A stretch of 64,000 nt of DNA from Maribacter dokdonensis DSW-8 (GTDB lineage: Bacteria > Bacteroidota > Bacteroidia > Flavobacteriales > Flavobacteriaceae), in assembly GCF_001447995.1 (NCBI RefSeq), contig NZ_LDPE01000001.1:124001-188000 (forward strand). Direction: 5' to 3'. The notes beneath the pieces were generated by a model. That model did not search any database. It was given only the letters and a program-made list of their open reading frames with translations, and was not told where the DNA came from. Positions within the stretch are counted from its first letter, which is position 1. Every line of letters starts with the position of its first letter. Of this stretch, positions 59,969 through 64,000 are shown one piece after another. The position numbers and the translations under genes were made by a program.

Positions 59969-60718
59969 ATGAAATTATTAGAAGATAAAAACGTAATTAT
60001 AACAGGGGCTAGCAGAGGAATTGGTATGGGTATAGCCCAAGTTTTTGCGGATCATGGAGCAAATGTTGCATTTACATATAGTTCTAGTGAAGCTCCTGCA
60101 TTAGCGTTAGAAAAGGAATTAACAGAGAAAGGCGTTAAGGCAAAAGCCTATAAAAGTAATGCTGCCAGTTTTCAAGAAGCTGAAGAGCTGGTTGCTAAAG
60201 TACTAGAAGATTTTGATGGAAGAATTGATGTGTTGATCAACAACGCAGGTATCACTAAAGATAATCTTTTAATGCGCATGTCAGAAGCAGATTTTGATGC
60301 TGTCATAGATATCAACTTGAAATCTGTTTTTAACATGACCAAAGCCGTACAAAGAACTTTGTTGAAACAACGTAAAGGTTCTATCATTAATATGAGTAGT
60401 GTGGTTGGGGTAAAAGGTAATGCAGGTCAAACCAATTACGCTGCATCTAAGGCAGGTATGATTGGTTTTACTAAATCTGTTGCATTGGAATTAGGCTCTA
60501 GAAATATTAGATGTAACGCTATTGCACCAGGATTCATTGAAACAGAAATGACCGATAAATTGGATGAAAAAACGGTTCAAGGATGGAGAGACGGTATTCC
60601 GTTAAAACGAGGAGGTTCTACCGAGGATATTGCAAATGCATGTTTGTATTTTGCATCTGACCTTTCTAGTTATGTAACAGGTCAAGTACTTAATGTTGAT
60701 GGTGGTATGCTTACCTAA
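59969..60718 (+). CDS. fabG: 3-oxoacyl-ACP reductase
   Basis: A 249-residue short-chain dehydrogenase. NADP-binding TGASRGIGMG is at 12-21, NNAG at about 90-93, and the catalytic Ser-Tyr-Lys in NMSSVVG and TNYAASKAG; C-terminal CNAIAPGFIETEMTDKL and LNVDGGML are FabG-like. It reduces 3-ketoacyl-ACP in fatty acid elongation. Other fab genes are not adjacent apart from the FabZ half of the lpxC fusion 4 kb upstream. Other SDR roles cannot be fully excluded. Confidence 0.92.
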   Translation: MKLLEDKNVIITGASRGIGMGIAQVFADHGANVAFTYSSSEAPALALEKELTEKGVKAKAYKSNAASFQEAEELVAKVLEDFDGRIDVLINNAGITKDNLLMRMSEADFDAVIDINLKSVFNMTKAVQRTLLKQRKGSIINMSSVVGVKGNAGQTNYAASKAGMIGFTKSVALELGSRNIRCNAIAPGFIETEMTDKLDEKTVQGWRDGIPLKRGGSTEDIANACLYFASDLSSYVTGQVLNVDGGMLT

Positions 60719-60782
60719 CACAATATTTATTCTTAGGCTTACTTTTTAAGTTCCTTTGATTAATTGAAATTTAGAAGCATTC

Positions 60783-62807
60783 ATGGAGAGCATAACGGTA
60801 CTGTATATAATTATTGCGGCAATAGCTGCACTGGGTATCGTTGTTTTTCAGTATTTGTATAAACAGAAGGCTAAAAGCAAAATTAATTTGCTTTTAGCCT
60901 TTTTACGATTTATAGGGGTTTTCGGATTGCTTCTATTATTGATAAATCCGAAGTTTTCTCAAAAAACGTATACCTTAGAAAAACCTAATCTGGTTATTCT
61001 TGCTGATAATTCTTCTTCCATTTCTGAAAATGGAGCAGAGTTAAATGAGCTAATGAGTTCAATTGGAGCTTCTGATAAAATCTCAGATCGTTTTAATGTG
61101 GCTAGTTATAAATTTGGGACAGGGTTAGAAGTTTTGGATAGTCTTTCATTTGATGAAAAGTATAGCAATTTTCATAAATCCTTATCAGCCTTAAAAAATA
61201 TCTATAGTCGCGAGCAAACAATTACACTGTTGTTGTCAGACGGTAACCAGACTATTGGTGAGGACTATAGCTTTTTCAAATCTAATGAAAGCAATGCTAT
61301 AAACACAGTGGTATTAGGTGATACTACTTTGTATAAAGATATTTCTGTGGGTCCCATATTGACCAATAAATATGCATTTCTAAAAAATAAATTCCCATTA
61401 GAGACTTATATTTCTTATCAGGGCAAAGTAACTGCTTCCGCAACTGTTTTGGTTAGAATGGATAACAAAGTTGTGCATAGGGAAAAGGTTGAACTCAATG
61501 CAGATGTTAATTTAAAAACAATTTCTATTCAGGTTGATGCCAATTCAGTTGGCACAAAAAATATTCGTGTGGAAGTTACGAAACTGCAAGATGAACGTAA
61601 TGTCAATAATAACGTACGCAGTACTAGTATTGAAGTCATAGACGAGAAAACAAAAATAGCCTTGGTCAGTGATATTTTACATCCAGACTTAGGTGCATTA
61701 AAAAAAGCTATTGAAAGTAATGAGCAAAGAGAGGTATTTTTTTTAAAGCCAAATACGGCTAATAATTTGGAGGATATTGATTTGTTTATTTTTTATCAGC
61801 CTAATGCCAAATTTAAAAAATTGTTCGATTTTGTTAAGGATAGAAATTCTAATTCATTTGTGATTACAGGTATTCAAACGGATTATAACTTTTTGAACAG
61901 GAGTAATTTAGGTTTTGAAATTGAGAACGGATATCCTGAGCAAGAAGTATTTGGGTTATTGAACAATGGCTTCTCAAAATATGATATTGCAAATTTTGAT
62001 TTAACGGATTTTCCACCTTTGCTTAGTGATGCAGGACCAGTATTAATTACTACAGCTTTTGAACCGCTGTTAGGAACACAGATTAAAGGAAAGGATATTC
62101 AACAGCCGTTACTTACTGTATTGGAACAAAACTCAAACAAAAAAGCACTTTTACTTGGAGAAAACCTTTGGAAGTGGAGGGTTCAGACATATAGAAATAC
62201 CGGAGCGTTTTCTAATTTTGATGAGTTTATAGCAAATCTAGTCCGTTATTTAACCAGTTCTAAAAACAAGACCAGGTTAAATGTAGATTATGAAAAAATT
62301 TATGAAGGCAGTAATAACACTATTATTACAGCAACTTATTTTGATGAGGCCTTTTTATTTGACCCAAATGCCAAAATCAGTATAAAGGTTACCGATACAA
62401 AAACCAAAAATACTCAAACCAGCCCCATGATTTTAAAAAACGGGTATTTTGAAGCGGACTTATCCAATTTAATTTCAGGTAGTTATAGTTTTGTGGTGTC
62501 GGTTGAAAACTACCAAAAATCAGAAACTGGTTCATTTGTTATCAATGAATTTAATTTGGAAAATCAATTTGTTTCAAGCGATTATTTAAAATTGGAAAAA
62601 TTGGCAACTAACTCTGGCGGTAAATTGTATTATCCTTCCCAAATAGATGAGCTAATAAGTGATTTGGAAGAAAATGACACCTACGTCCCCACGGAGAAAA
62701 GCACTGAAAATATCGTATCTTTGATTGATTTCGAAATACTACTGGCAATAATTGTATTTGCCTTTGCTTCAGAATGGTTTATAAGAAAATATAACGGATT
62801 AATTTAA
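60783..62807 (+). CDS. Large membrane protein with vWA-like region
   Basis: A 674-residue protein with two N-terminal transmembrane helices (about 6-25 and 37-57), a large extracytoplasmic region, and a C-terminal helix (about 648-665, LLAIIVFAFASEWFI). Just after the second helix comes LVILADNSSSIS, matching the DxSxS of a von Willebrand A metal site, and later LLLSDGNQT. The following part is beta-rich, with DIDLFIFYQP and LLGENLWKWRVQTY. It resembles the BatA/glutamine-amidotransferase-like VWA membrane proteins of Bacteroidota. Function unknown. It is 10 bases upstream of the SPFH gene, likely co-transcribed. Confidence 0.82.
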   Translation: MESITVLYIIIAAIAALGIVVFQYLYKQKAKSKINLLLAFLRFIGVFGLLLLLINPKFSQKTYTLEKPNLVILADNSSSISENGAELNELMSSIGASDKISDRFNVASYKFGTGLEVLDSLSFDEKYSNFHKSLSALKNIYSREQTITLLLSDGNQTIGEDYSFFKSNESNAINTVVLGDTTLYKDISVGPILTNKYAFLKNKFPLETYISYQGKVTASATVLVRMDNKVVHREKVELNADVNLKTISIQVDANSVGTKNIRVEVTKLQDERNVNNNVRSTSIEVIDEKTKIALVSDILHPDLGALKKAIESNEQREVFFLKPNTANNLEDIDLFIFYQPNAKFKKLFDFVKDRNSNSFVITGIQTDYNFLNRSNLGFEIENGYPEQEVFGLLNNGFSKYDIANFDLTDFPPLLSDAGPVLITTAFEPLLGTQIKGKDIQQPLLTVLEQNSNKKALLLGENLWKWRVQTYRNTGAFSNFDEFIANLVRYLTSSKNKTRLNVDYEKIYEGSNNTIITATYFDEAFLFDPNAKISIKVTDTKTKNTQTSPMILKNGYFEADLSNLISGSYSFVVSVENYQKSETGSFVINEFNLENQFVSSDYLKLEKLATNSGGKLYYPSQIDELISDLEENDTYVPTEKSTENIVSLIDFEILLAIIVFAFASEWFIRKYNGLI

Positions 62808-62817
62808 TTGAACACTA

Positions 62818-63633
62818 ATGGATAAATTACCTAAAATTGCATTACCTGCAATATTTGTTTTAATAGTACTAGTAATAATGTTTTCTAAATCTACGGTCAC
62901 CATTGGTTCTGGTGAAGCTGGCGTATTGTATAAAACATTTGGAGATGGTGTAGTTACAGATGAACCGCCTTTAGGTGAAGGATTTCATATTGTTGCTCCA
63001 TGGAATAAAGTTTTTATTTATGAAGTTAGACAGCAAGAAGTTTTAGAAAAAATGAATGTGCTTTCTAGTAACGGACTGGATATAAAATTAGAAGCTTCCG
63101 CTTGGTTTGAGCCTATTAGAAATGATTTGGGCAAGTTGCATCAAGAAAAAGGAGAAGACTATATTCAACGTGTTTTGTTGCCTACCATAAGATCGGCAGC
63201 AAGATCTGTAGTTGGGCGTTATACGCCGGAGCAATTATATTCAAGTAAAAGAGATGCTATTCAACAAGAGATTTTTGATGAGACCAAAAAAATTGTTGAG
63301 GGAGAATATATTCAATTAAACGAAATCTTGGTGCGTGATGTAACCTTACCACCAACAATTAAAGAGGCTATTGAAAGAAAGTTACGGCAAGAACAGGAGT
63401 CATTGGAATATGAGTTTCGTTTAGTGACCGCTAGAAAAGAAGCTGAAAAAGTAACGATTGAGGCGCAAGGTAAAGCCGATGCCAATAAAATTTTAAGTGC
63501 ATCCTTGACTGATAAAATTTTACAGGACAAAGGTATTGATGCAACGCTAAAGCTTTCTGAATCTCCCAATACCAAGGTGATTGTAGTTGGTGGTGGTGAA
63601 TCTGGTCTTCCTTTAATTTTAGGTAATAACTAA
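62818..63633 (+). CDS. SPFH/prohibitin-family membrane protein
   Basis: A 271-residue band-7 protein with an N-terminal membrane anchor (about 7-23, IALPAIFVLIVLVIMF), the SPFH domain (about 25-190: SGEAGVLYKTFGDGVV, EGFHIVAPWNKVFIYEVR), and a coiled coil (about 195-235, KEAIERKLRQEQESLEYEFRL). It ends in a Gly-rich tail. Prohibitins form large membrane rings and often accompany proteases. It follows the vWA-like gene; a joint membrane complex is plausible but not shown. Confidence 0.93.
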   Translation: MDKLPKIALPAIFVLIVLVIMFSKSTVTIGSGEAGVLYKTFGDGVVTDEPPLGEGFHIVAPWNKVFIYEVRQQEVLEKMNVLSSNGLDIKLEASAWFEPIRNDLGKLHQEKGEDYIQRVLLPTIRSAARSVVGRYTPEQLYSSKRDAIQQEIFDETKKIVEGEYIQLNEILVRDVTLPPTIKEAIERKLRQEQESLEYEFRLVTARKEAEKVTIEAQGKADANKILSASLTDKILQDKGIDATLKLSESPNTKVIVVGGGESGLPLILGNN

Positions 63634-63674
63634 AACACGTAGAACATTATTTTTGTTTCATTTTAAACTTTTGT

Positions 63675-63705
63675 TTTGCGAAATGAAAAATACCTTTTAC
63701 TTTTA
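63675..63705 (+). promoter_or_regulatory. Promoter of the histidine operon
   Basis: TTTG at 63675-63678, 19 bases, then TACTTTTA at 63698-63705 (one mismatch to TAnnTTTG). Transcription would start within a few bases of the leader ATG at 63713, so the leader peptide is almost leaderless. Confidence 0.68.
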
Positions 63706-63712
63706 CAACAGA

Positions 63713-63766
63713 ATGAAAAATAGAACTACACATCATCATATTCATACACACGCTCAGGCGAGGTAG
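63713..63766 (+). CDS. His-operon leader peptide (5 His in 17 codons)
   Basis: The short frame reads MKNRTTHHHIHTHAQAR and stops at TAG. Five of seven codons from 63731 to 63751 are His (CAT four times, CAC once). It lies between the promoter and a strong terminator ahead of hisG. This is the layout of a histidine attenuator: ribosome stalling at His codons when charged tRNA-His is scarce should prevent terminator formation. Recognition is from the sequence; mechanism is by analogy with the enteric his leader. Confidence 0.88.
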   Translation: MKNRTTHHHIHTHAQAR

Positions 63767-63795
63767 GAATGTATTGTAGTAGTACAACATATTTA

Positions 63796-63829
63796 AAAAC
63801 CCGTTTGAGCAATCAAACGGGTTTTGTAT
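63796..63829 (+). terminator. Attenuator terminator ahead of hisG
   Basis: AAAACCCGTTTGA (63796-63808) pairs perfectly with TCAAACGGGTTTT (63813-63825), loop GCAA, followed by GTATTT. A smaller hairpin (TTGTA / TACAA, 63774-63787) precedes it and may belong to the alternative fold. Confidence 0.9.
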
Positions 63830-63867
63830 TTAAATCTCTTTTGGTTGCCAAGCATTAAATTAAAACA

Positions 63868-64000
63868 ATGACTAAAATTAGAATTGCTATTCAGAAATCG
63901 GGAAGACTTAATGAAGAATCCCTTCAAATTTTAAAAGACTGCGGAATTTCAATTGATAACGGCAAAGATCAATTAAAAGCATCTTCAAGAAATTTTCCAA
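63868..64000 (+). CDS. hisG: ATP phosphoribosyltransferase, start only
   Basis: Only the first 44 codons are in the window. The sequence MTKIRIAIQKSGRLNEESLQ, then LKDCGISIDNGKDQLKASSRNFP, fits the N-terminus of HisG (QKSGRL phosphate-binding start), which joins ATP and PRPP in the first step of histidine synthesis. Placement after a His-rich leader and terminator strengthens the call. The rest of the operon lies beyond the window edge. Confidence 0.93.
   Translation, partial: MTKIRIAIQKSGRLNEESLQILKDCGISIDNGKDQLKASSRNFP

Follow-up and report, generated by a model that had tools for sequence, protein, structure and literature searches.

The DNA upstream of hisG in Maribacter dokdonensis DSW-8 carries, as we conclude with high confidence from sequence comparison, a ribosome-mediated transcription attenuator of the his operon that would be translated from a nearly leaderless leader mRNA. 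This switch very probably lets the bacterium make histidine only in histidine shortage. It lies at the end of the window (the whole 64,000-nt stretch of DNA that was analysed) and comprises the following features.

63675..63705, + strand: predicted primary-sigma promoter (Bacteroidota), with TTTG at 63675-63678, N19 and TACTTTTA at 63698-63705; predicted +1 at about 63710
63713..63766, + strand: leader peptide ORF MKNRTTHHHIHTHAQAR, 17 codons, stop codon TAG at 63764-63766
63731..63739, + strand: CAT CAT CAT, the His codons that would exert control, -21/-18/-15 nt relative to the antiterminator strand
63752..63764, + strand: antiterminator 5' strand GCTCAGGCG-A-GGT, formed by the last four leader codons and the first base of the stop codon
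63767..63794, + strand: small hairpin P2 (predicted fold), inside the antiterminator loop
63796..63825, + strand: intrinsic terminator AAAACCCGTTTGA-GCAA-TCAAACGGGTTTT, with a perfect 13-bp stem, a GCAA loop and a T-rich 3' end
63799..63810, + strand: shared arm ACCCGTTTGAGC, the antiterminator 3' strand, equal to the inner terminator 5' arm plus loop bases 1-2
63803..63814, + strand: arm-plus-loop segment GTTTGAGCAATC, which can pair with the D element
63843..63853, + strand: D element GGTTGCCAAGC, able to pair with 63803-63814 leaving one bulge; 14 nt separate it from the hisG ATG
63868..64000, + strand: hisG, first gene of the his operon, with a Pfam HisG match; runs past the window end

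Among the ORFs of the his operon, only hisG was checked by a family model (profile search, Pfam HisG match at G000:C1:188018-188482, E 1.6e-50); those that follow it beyond the window are read as hisD, hisC, hisB, hisH, hisA, hisF and hisIE, names given by recognition. The upstream neighbour is an ORF at 62818-63633 that appears band-7/SPFH-like by eye. The five His codons of the leader lie at 63731, 63734, 63737, 63743 and 63749, and the terminator's 3' end is 42 nt from the hisG ATG (63868). An initial annotation had listed the TTTG-N19-box promoter, the ATG 7 nt further on, the His leader, the hairpin, the terminator and the 42-nt gap, and every one of them was found at the bases it had given.

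In the proposed mechanism, the leading ribosome would reach the stop codon (63764) when His-tRNA is plentiful and cover 63752-63764, upon which the arm 63796-63808 would pair with 63813-63825 and RNA polymerase would terminate before hisG. With His-tRNA in short supply, the ribosome would stall on the His triplet at 63731-63739 with its front edge just short of 63752, the antiterminator (63752-63764/63799-63810) could form, no terminator would arise, and hisG onward would be transcribed. In readthrough transcripts, the D element (63843-63853) could capture the same arm. Attenuation by a leader and a terminator had already been suggested in the initial annotation, and both of these parts stand, but the antiterminator that such a scheme requires was absent from its description, as were the D element and an in-frame upstream ATG (63683) accompanied by another box match (63648-63655).

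Conservation of a His-rich leader upstream of hisG

The leader region has five His in eight residues, a density reached by 1 of 5,000 dinucleotide shuffles. An ATG-started ORF that holds three or more His among eight residues and lies within 300 nt of hisG is present in 183 of 195 hisG loci, compared with 71 of 3,900 dinucleotide shuffles (1.8%), and with relaxed starts and a range of 450 nt a His-rich ORF was found in 191 of 196 loci (our own locus counted twice). When 14 other residues were scored as for His (Lys, Asn, Phe, Leu and Ile left out), Thr (31) and Ser (17) came out on top.

Within the Flavobacteriaceae, all 105 genera, our own included, have a leader containing two or more clustered His, and at least three clustered His are seen in 102 of the 104 other genera, in 35 of 35 genus members (from 36 genomes, the excluded one having a hisG fragment at a contig end) and in 76 of 80 named loci (80 of at least 583 relatives). 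By script, all 143 family loci have the leader, 140 the terminator and 127 a significant antiterminator duplex (mononucleotide shuffles). Loss of the His codon run or of the terminator in relatives had been named in advance as evidence against attenuation; the run is kept in 35/35 genus members and, as at least two clustered His, in 104/104 other family genera, and the terminator is missing by script from three of the 143 family loci.

Outside the family, we considered the best-scoring 52 loci of about 164 non-family genomes with hisG. Fifty of them show a leader-like ORF with two or more His and 33 a terminator, 21 of these 33 with a significant antiterminator duplex (p ≤ 0.05, mononucleotide shuffles); the script recognised no terminator in 19 of the 52. 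As a separate observation, a His-rich ORF precedes hisG without a script-recognised intrinsic terminator in three loci of the same class (L064, L076, L111), whose leaders end, by eye, in SS and a stop codon over a short palindrome, and in five loci of another class of the phylum (L067, L069, L070, L072, L074). The his readout in these loci may differ.

Covariation of the alternative stems

In the antiterminator, GCUCAGGCG-A-GGU (63752-63764) pairs with ACC-CGUUUGAGC (63799-63810), a stem that would be mutually exclusive with the terminator and could be covered by a ribosome on the leader. Folded alone, 63745-63812 yields exactly the antiterminator stem around the small hairpin (-24.5 kcal/mol, z -5.4); the fold of small hairpin plus terminator reaches -24.6 (z -5.6). 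For the whole leader, the folding z-score is -4.9, and the minimum-energy fold contains the terminator in place of the antiterminator, as expected because no ribosome takes part in the folding.

We followed both stems through a covariation alignment of 105 Flavobacteriaceae genera (A1). In the terminator, 94.6% of cells are paired and 7 pairs have two-sided changes; such changes fill 33 cells against a shuffled mean of 3.9, thereby supplying the compensatory changes that the initial annotation had proposed to look for, and 0 of 500 shuffles reached its value on any of five measures. For the antiterminator, 87.5% of cells are paired, compared with at most 49.2% when the partner is slid by 1-3 columns, and there are 51 two-sided cells against 20.6 in shuffles (0/500 as high), shuffle counts that overstate independence because the rows are related and few pairs are supported on the tree (see below). 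Two measures were weaker for this stem, its 5 pairs with two-sided change being equalled in 9/500 shuffles and its 16 further pair types in 41/500. Pairing is lost at two inner G-C positions in 30 and 47 of the 105 rows, and 37 of the 51 two-sided cells stem from the outermost pair.

This outermost pair is found as A-U (23), G-C (19) or U-A (17), and it is paired in 63/102 rows and unpaired in 39/102, compared with a mean of 41.7 and a maximum of 59 in 10,000 permutations. Since it uses a base of the terminator loop, the terminator cannot account for its covariation. A tree-aware test of the pair gave 2-5 supported independent pairs on few supported branches, with one of the 105 HisG rows being 29 residues long. 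In one locus (L148), three strands have changed in concert, namely the leader (CAGGUG), the arm (CAUCUG) and the terminator 3' arm (CAGAUG).

Codon spacing and the ribosome footprint

We counted His codon positions from the first antiterminator base and rounded them to codons. Of the 105 genera, 101 encode His at -21, 102 at -18 and 101 at -15; 63 do so at -24, 48 at -9 and 5 at -12, and no other position listed has it in more than 7. The first base of the stop codon falls at +12 in 92 of the 105. Downstream of its first A-site base, a ribosome protects about 12-13 nt (toeprint value), so that one waiting at -15 would just spare the antiterminator, one at -12 would begin covering it, and one at the stop codon would cover the whole antiterminator strand. 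In 7 of the 35 genus members, the leader stops one codon into this strand (GCTTAG); GCGAG is kept beyond the stop in 7/7, so that conservation there points to RNA pairing and not to the peptide.

These spacings bear on two other explanations. That the leader senses something other than stalled ribosomes, through a T-box, a riboswitch or an RNA-binding protein, is very improbable. It would suit this idea that an Rfam scan of 60000-64000 to E 5 gave no RF00514 (His_leader) line at the site, but the scan gave no RF01692 (Bacteroid-trp), T-box or riboswitch line there either, and both the His codon spacing and the stop position fit a ribosome footprint. The sole RF00514 line, at 22.5 bits against a gathering threshold of 49, lies at 60863-61009 on the other strand. 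An L10_leader line over the site (24.4 bits, gathering threshold 44) was read as a chance match helped by the terminator.

We find it scarcely credible that the hairpin is a plain terminator of the upstream ORF at 62818-63633, with an independent promoter for hisG and His codons present by chance. The terminator does lie downstream of that ORF (end 63633), yet the position of the His triplet is fixed in more than 100 of 105 genera, the antiterminator covaries, a His-rich ORF of this kind arises in 1.8% of shuffles only, and no box with 5 of 6 core bases starts within 63699-63860.

A predicted near-leaderless leader mRNA

The mRNA of the ribosome-mediated attenuator is predicted to be nearly leaderless. 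The promoter box and the leader ATG are 7 nt apart in 35/35 genus members, with TACTTTTAC in 31 of them and four variants, and the bases between box and ATG vary (19 different 6-mers). Because the box sits at -12 to -5 relative to the transcription start in a published map (PMC9723704), this distance predicts a 5' UTR of about 3 nt, which upholds, as a prediction, the nearly leaderless mRNA that had been proposed for this locus. A Shine-Dalgarno-like motif precedes 0 of the 35 genus leaders and 3 of the 104 leaders in other family genera. A second box match at 63691-63698, with TTTG at N17, would imply a UTR of about 10 nt. For comparison, leaderless mRNAs are reported to make up 5.5% in F. 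psychrophilum (PMC9723704), and 5' UTRs shorter than 10 nt about 3.7% in B. thetaiotaomicron (PMC7366714).

Over the 105 genera, the box-to-ATG distance is at most 9 nt in 34, 10-13 nt in 2, 14-24 nt in 63 and beyond in 6; shuffled upstream regions spread flatly over the same bins (551, 192, 526 and 831 of 2,100). Single short-UTR calls outside the genus are weak, since about a quarter of the shuffles (551/2,100) also have their best box at most 9 nt from the ATG, yet two distance modes stand out despite these uncertain individual calls. Box scores of at least 10 were obtained for 62/105 real and 705/2,100 shuffled regions.

Attenuation could also operate with an ordinary UTR, which we regard as quite unlikely. 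Transcription would then start at about 63660 from TATTTTTG (63648-63655), and a 27-residue leader would begin at ATG 63683 after a 23-nt 5' UTR. This box matches the core (TAnnTTTG) at 6 of 6 bases, the ATG is in frame, and the UTR length would be usual, the F. psychrophilum median being 24 nt (PMC9723704). However, the box is without a -33 TTTG partner (best 1 of 4 bases), and ATG 63683 is missing in 16/35 genus members (kept in 19/35) and in 99/104 other genera, whereas 35/35 genus members retain the box at 7 nt from the 63713 ATG. The box-7 nt-ATG order is also that of the genome's trp leader, a Bacteroid-trp match.

That trp leader has the layout of the near-leaderless his leader, TATATTTG-7 nt-ATG, and three Trp codons. 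It belongs to a trp attenuator before trpE (L278, L284; G000:C8) with the leader peptide MKNLIANTWWWNNLRKTS, ended by a stop codon, and a terminator-like hairpin about 21 nt before trpE; the Rfam match (L285, G000:C8:89969-90084) scores 53.1 bits with a cut-off of 49. Further observations by eye are a Thr-rich ORF (MDCYITDITLDFTSATITYGTATARFTLWG) that resembles a thr attenuator leader before an aspartokinase/homoserine dehydrogenase ORF (L282), and a SAM riboswitch-like sequence upstream of the first ORF, a methionine-type gene, in L283; before ilvD of the same genome (L281), no leader was evident by eye.

The D element, a candidate second layer at hisG

Downstream of the terminator, the D element is complementary to the terminator's inner 5' arm and apical loop. 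In our locus the duplex reaches -12.5 kcal/mol (shuffle p ≤ 0.005). In the 103 genera whose spacer was long enough to measure (two of the 105 fell out), D is found in 68 at p ≤ 0.05 and in 64 at p ≤ 0.005 with mononucleotide-shuffled spacers, and in 69 and 61, respectively, with dinucleotide shuffles; 27 of the 35 genus members carry it at p ≤ 0.05. Outside the Flavobacteriaceae, 2 of 32 loci have D at p ≤ 0.05, which is about chance, and the terminator ends 20-30 nt before hisG in 19 of the 32.

The position of D is related to hisG. Where the room is 36-63 nt, 61 of 76 genera have it at most 25 nt from the gene, compared with 1 of 12 where there is less (<36 nt) and 1 of 15 where there is more (>63 nt). 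In 55 of the 69 carriers, 12-19 nt lie between its end and hisG. In 63 additional loci (80 named minus 10 duplicates and 7 without a usable terminator), D is within 25 nt of hisG in 38 and within 36 nt in 46.

The pairing is family-wide and covaries, also with the terminator loop. Across 62 loci selected for carrying D, native pairs reach -14.5 kcal/mol and pairs swapped between species with different loops -8.8, the native one being stronger in 61/62. In an alignment of 76 rows selected by room only, with the structure taken from the first row (A3), D is paired in 88.8% of cells, compared with at most 50.4% when slid, and two-sided changes number 89 against 37.9 in shuffles; its 8 pairs with two-sided change are equalled in 8/500 shuffles. 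The most variable pair occurs as A-U (24), U-A (19), C-G (12) and U-G (9) and is unpaired in 10 rows. Forcing the D hairpin costs a median of 4.1 kcal/mol over the minimum fold (62 loci) and 0.6 in our own RNA (-27.7 versus -28.3); in L154, the minimum fold includes D.

Since D is transcribed after the termination decision, its action would be limited to readthrough RNA or to trans. Translation in F. johnsoniae is described as tuned by mRNA structure (PMC6847099). We hold, weakly, that the likeliest role of D is a second layer at hisG, which would tune translation or mRNA fate according to the leader pairing of the arm; what probability this and the trans role considered below leave over falls to a stability or neutral role. 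It is likewise a tentative suggestion that the arm acts as a three-way switch, overlapping parts of which would pair with the leader strand, the terminator 3' arm or D. If true, the position of the leader ribosome would set both termination and the structure at the hisG start in readthrough mRNA, giving a his attenuator with two levels, one acting on transcription and the other on translation or mRNA fate, that would have evolved within the Flavobacteriaceae. We know of no other his attenuator with such a two-level arm.

For D alone, there is a lesser chance that it acts in trans, with terminated leader RNA pairing to the D site before hisG and lowering hisG expression. The complementarity between D and the leader RNA's arm and apical loop agrees with this, as does the position of its end, 12-19 nt from hisG in 55/69 carriers, and a precedent is described in S. 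meliloti, where rnTrpL, a trp attenuator RNA, acts on trpDC (PMC7298713); against it, most tested loci fold more stably without D than with D forced. Should D instead work as proposed above, one arm would have three partners, and termination would be linked to later events at hisG. D is the part of this attenuator that most deserves further attention.

Relation to known attenuators

The functional model is the enterobacterial his operon, which has an attenuator with a mutually exclusive antiterminator. The attenuator proposed here resembles it (RF00514) in its His-rich leader peptide, in the terminator before the first his gene and in the mutually exclusive antiterminator. It differs in that the antiterminator strand lies within the last leader codons, no separate preceding hairpin was recognised as a pause hairpin, and the leader is without a Shine-Dalgarno sequence, predicted near-leaderless and accompanied by the D element.

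Closer to our locus, clues to leader-peptide attenuation upstream of amino-acid operons in F. psychrophilum are in print, together with a conserved 5' element that precedes hisG in Flavobacteriaceae and is unmatched in Rfam (PMC9723704), so that a hisG element as such was already known. The published element concerns the same gene in the same family, occurs in other genera too and has no Rfam hit, but the antiterminator with its pairing scheme, the codon geometry, the near-leaderless leader and the D element do not figure in the text consulted. The available text of a source on his genes in this superphylum (PMC8305728) contains the word 'leader' 0 times and names attenuation only for S. enterica and E. 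coli. Older computational surveys of attenuation (Lyubetsky 2007 and Lopatovskaya 2010, as cited in PMC4833913) may already include such or related leaders.

Bacteroid-trp RNA (RF01692), listed for Bacteroidetes (PMC2864571), is likewise an amino-acid operon leader in Bacteroidota, present here in one copy before trpE with its box 7 nt before the ATG. Its codons are Trp codons and its operon is another one, and RF01692 has its sole genome match at G000:C8 and none at the his site. Leaderless attenuators are described for S. meliloti trpL/rnTrpL (PMC7298713) and for mycobacterial poly-Cys ORFs (Canestrari 2020, as cited in PMC9031893). These share with our leader, as predicted, an ORF at or near the mRNA 5' end and a dependence on codon-specific ribosome speed, but involve other amino acids and other phyla, and the mycobacterial case is described as regulating translation of downstream genes (PMC9031893). 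The initial annotation had presented leaderless attenuation as notable; the his leader is indeed predicted to be near-leaderless, but with these two systems precedents exist.

Attenuation relies on tight timing between ribosome and RNA polymerase, and the mRNAs of this phylum are described as having no Shine-Dalgarno sequences (PMC6847099). Because the spacing of control codons, antiterminator and stop codon is near constant over 105 genera, the leader offers a ready-made gauge of coupling, for which the family supplies predicted near-leaderless and short-UTR versions of one regulator for comparison.

Gene content of the his operon

Downstream of hisG, several unrelated ORFs are interspersed among the his genes. 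Three stretches of L197 (5608-6451, 7284-7799 and 8835-9551) hold ORFs within the his operon that are seemingly foreign to histidine synthesis; by eye, these ORFs are acetyltransferase-like, four-helix-bundle-like, DinB-like and racemase-like.
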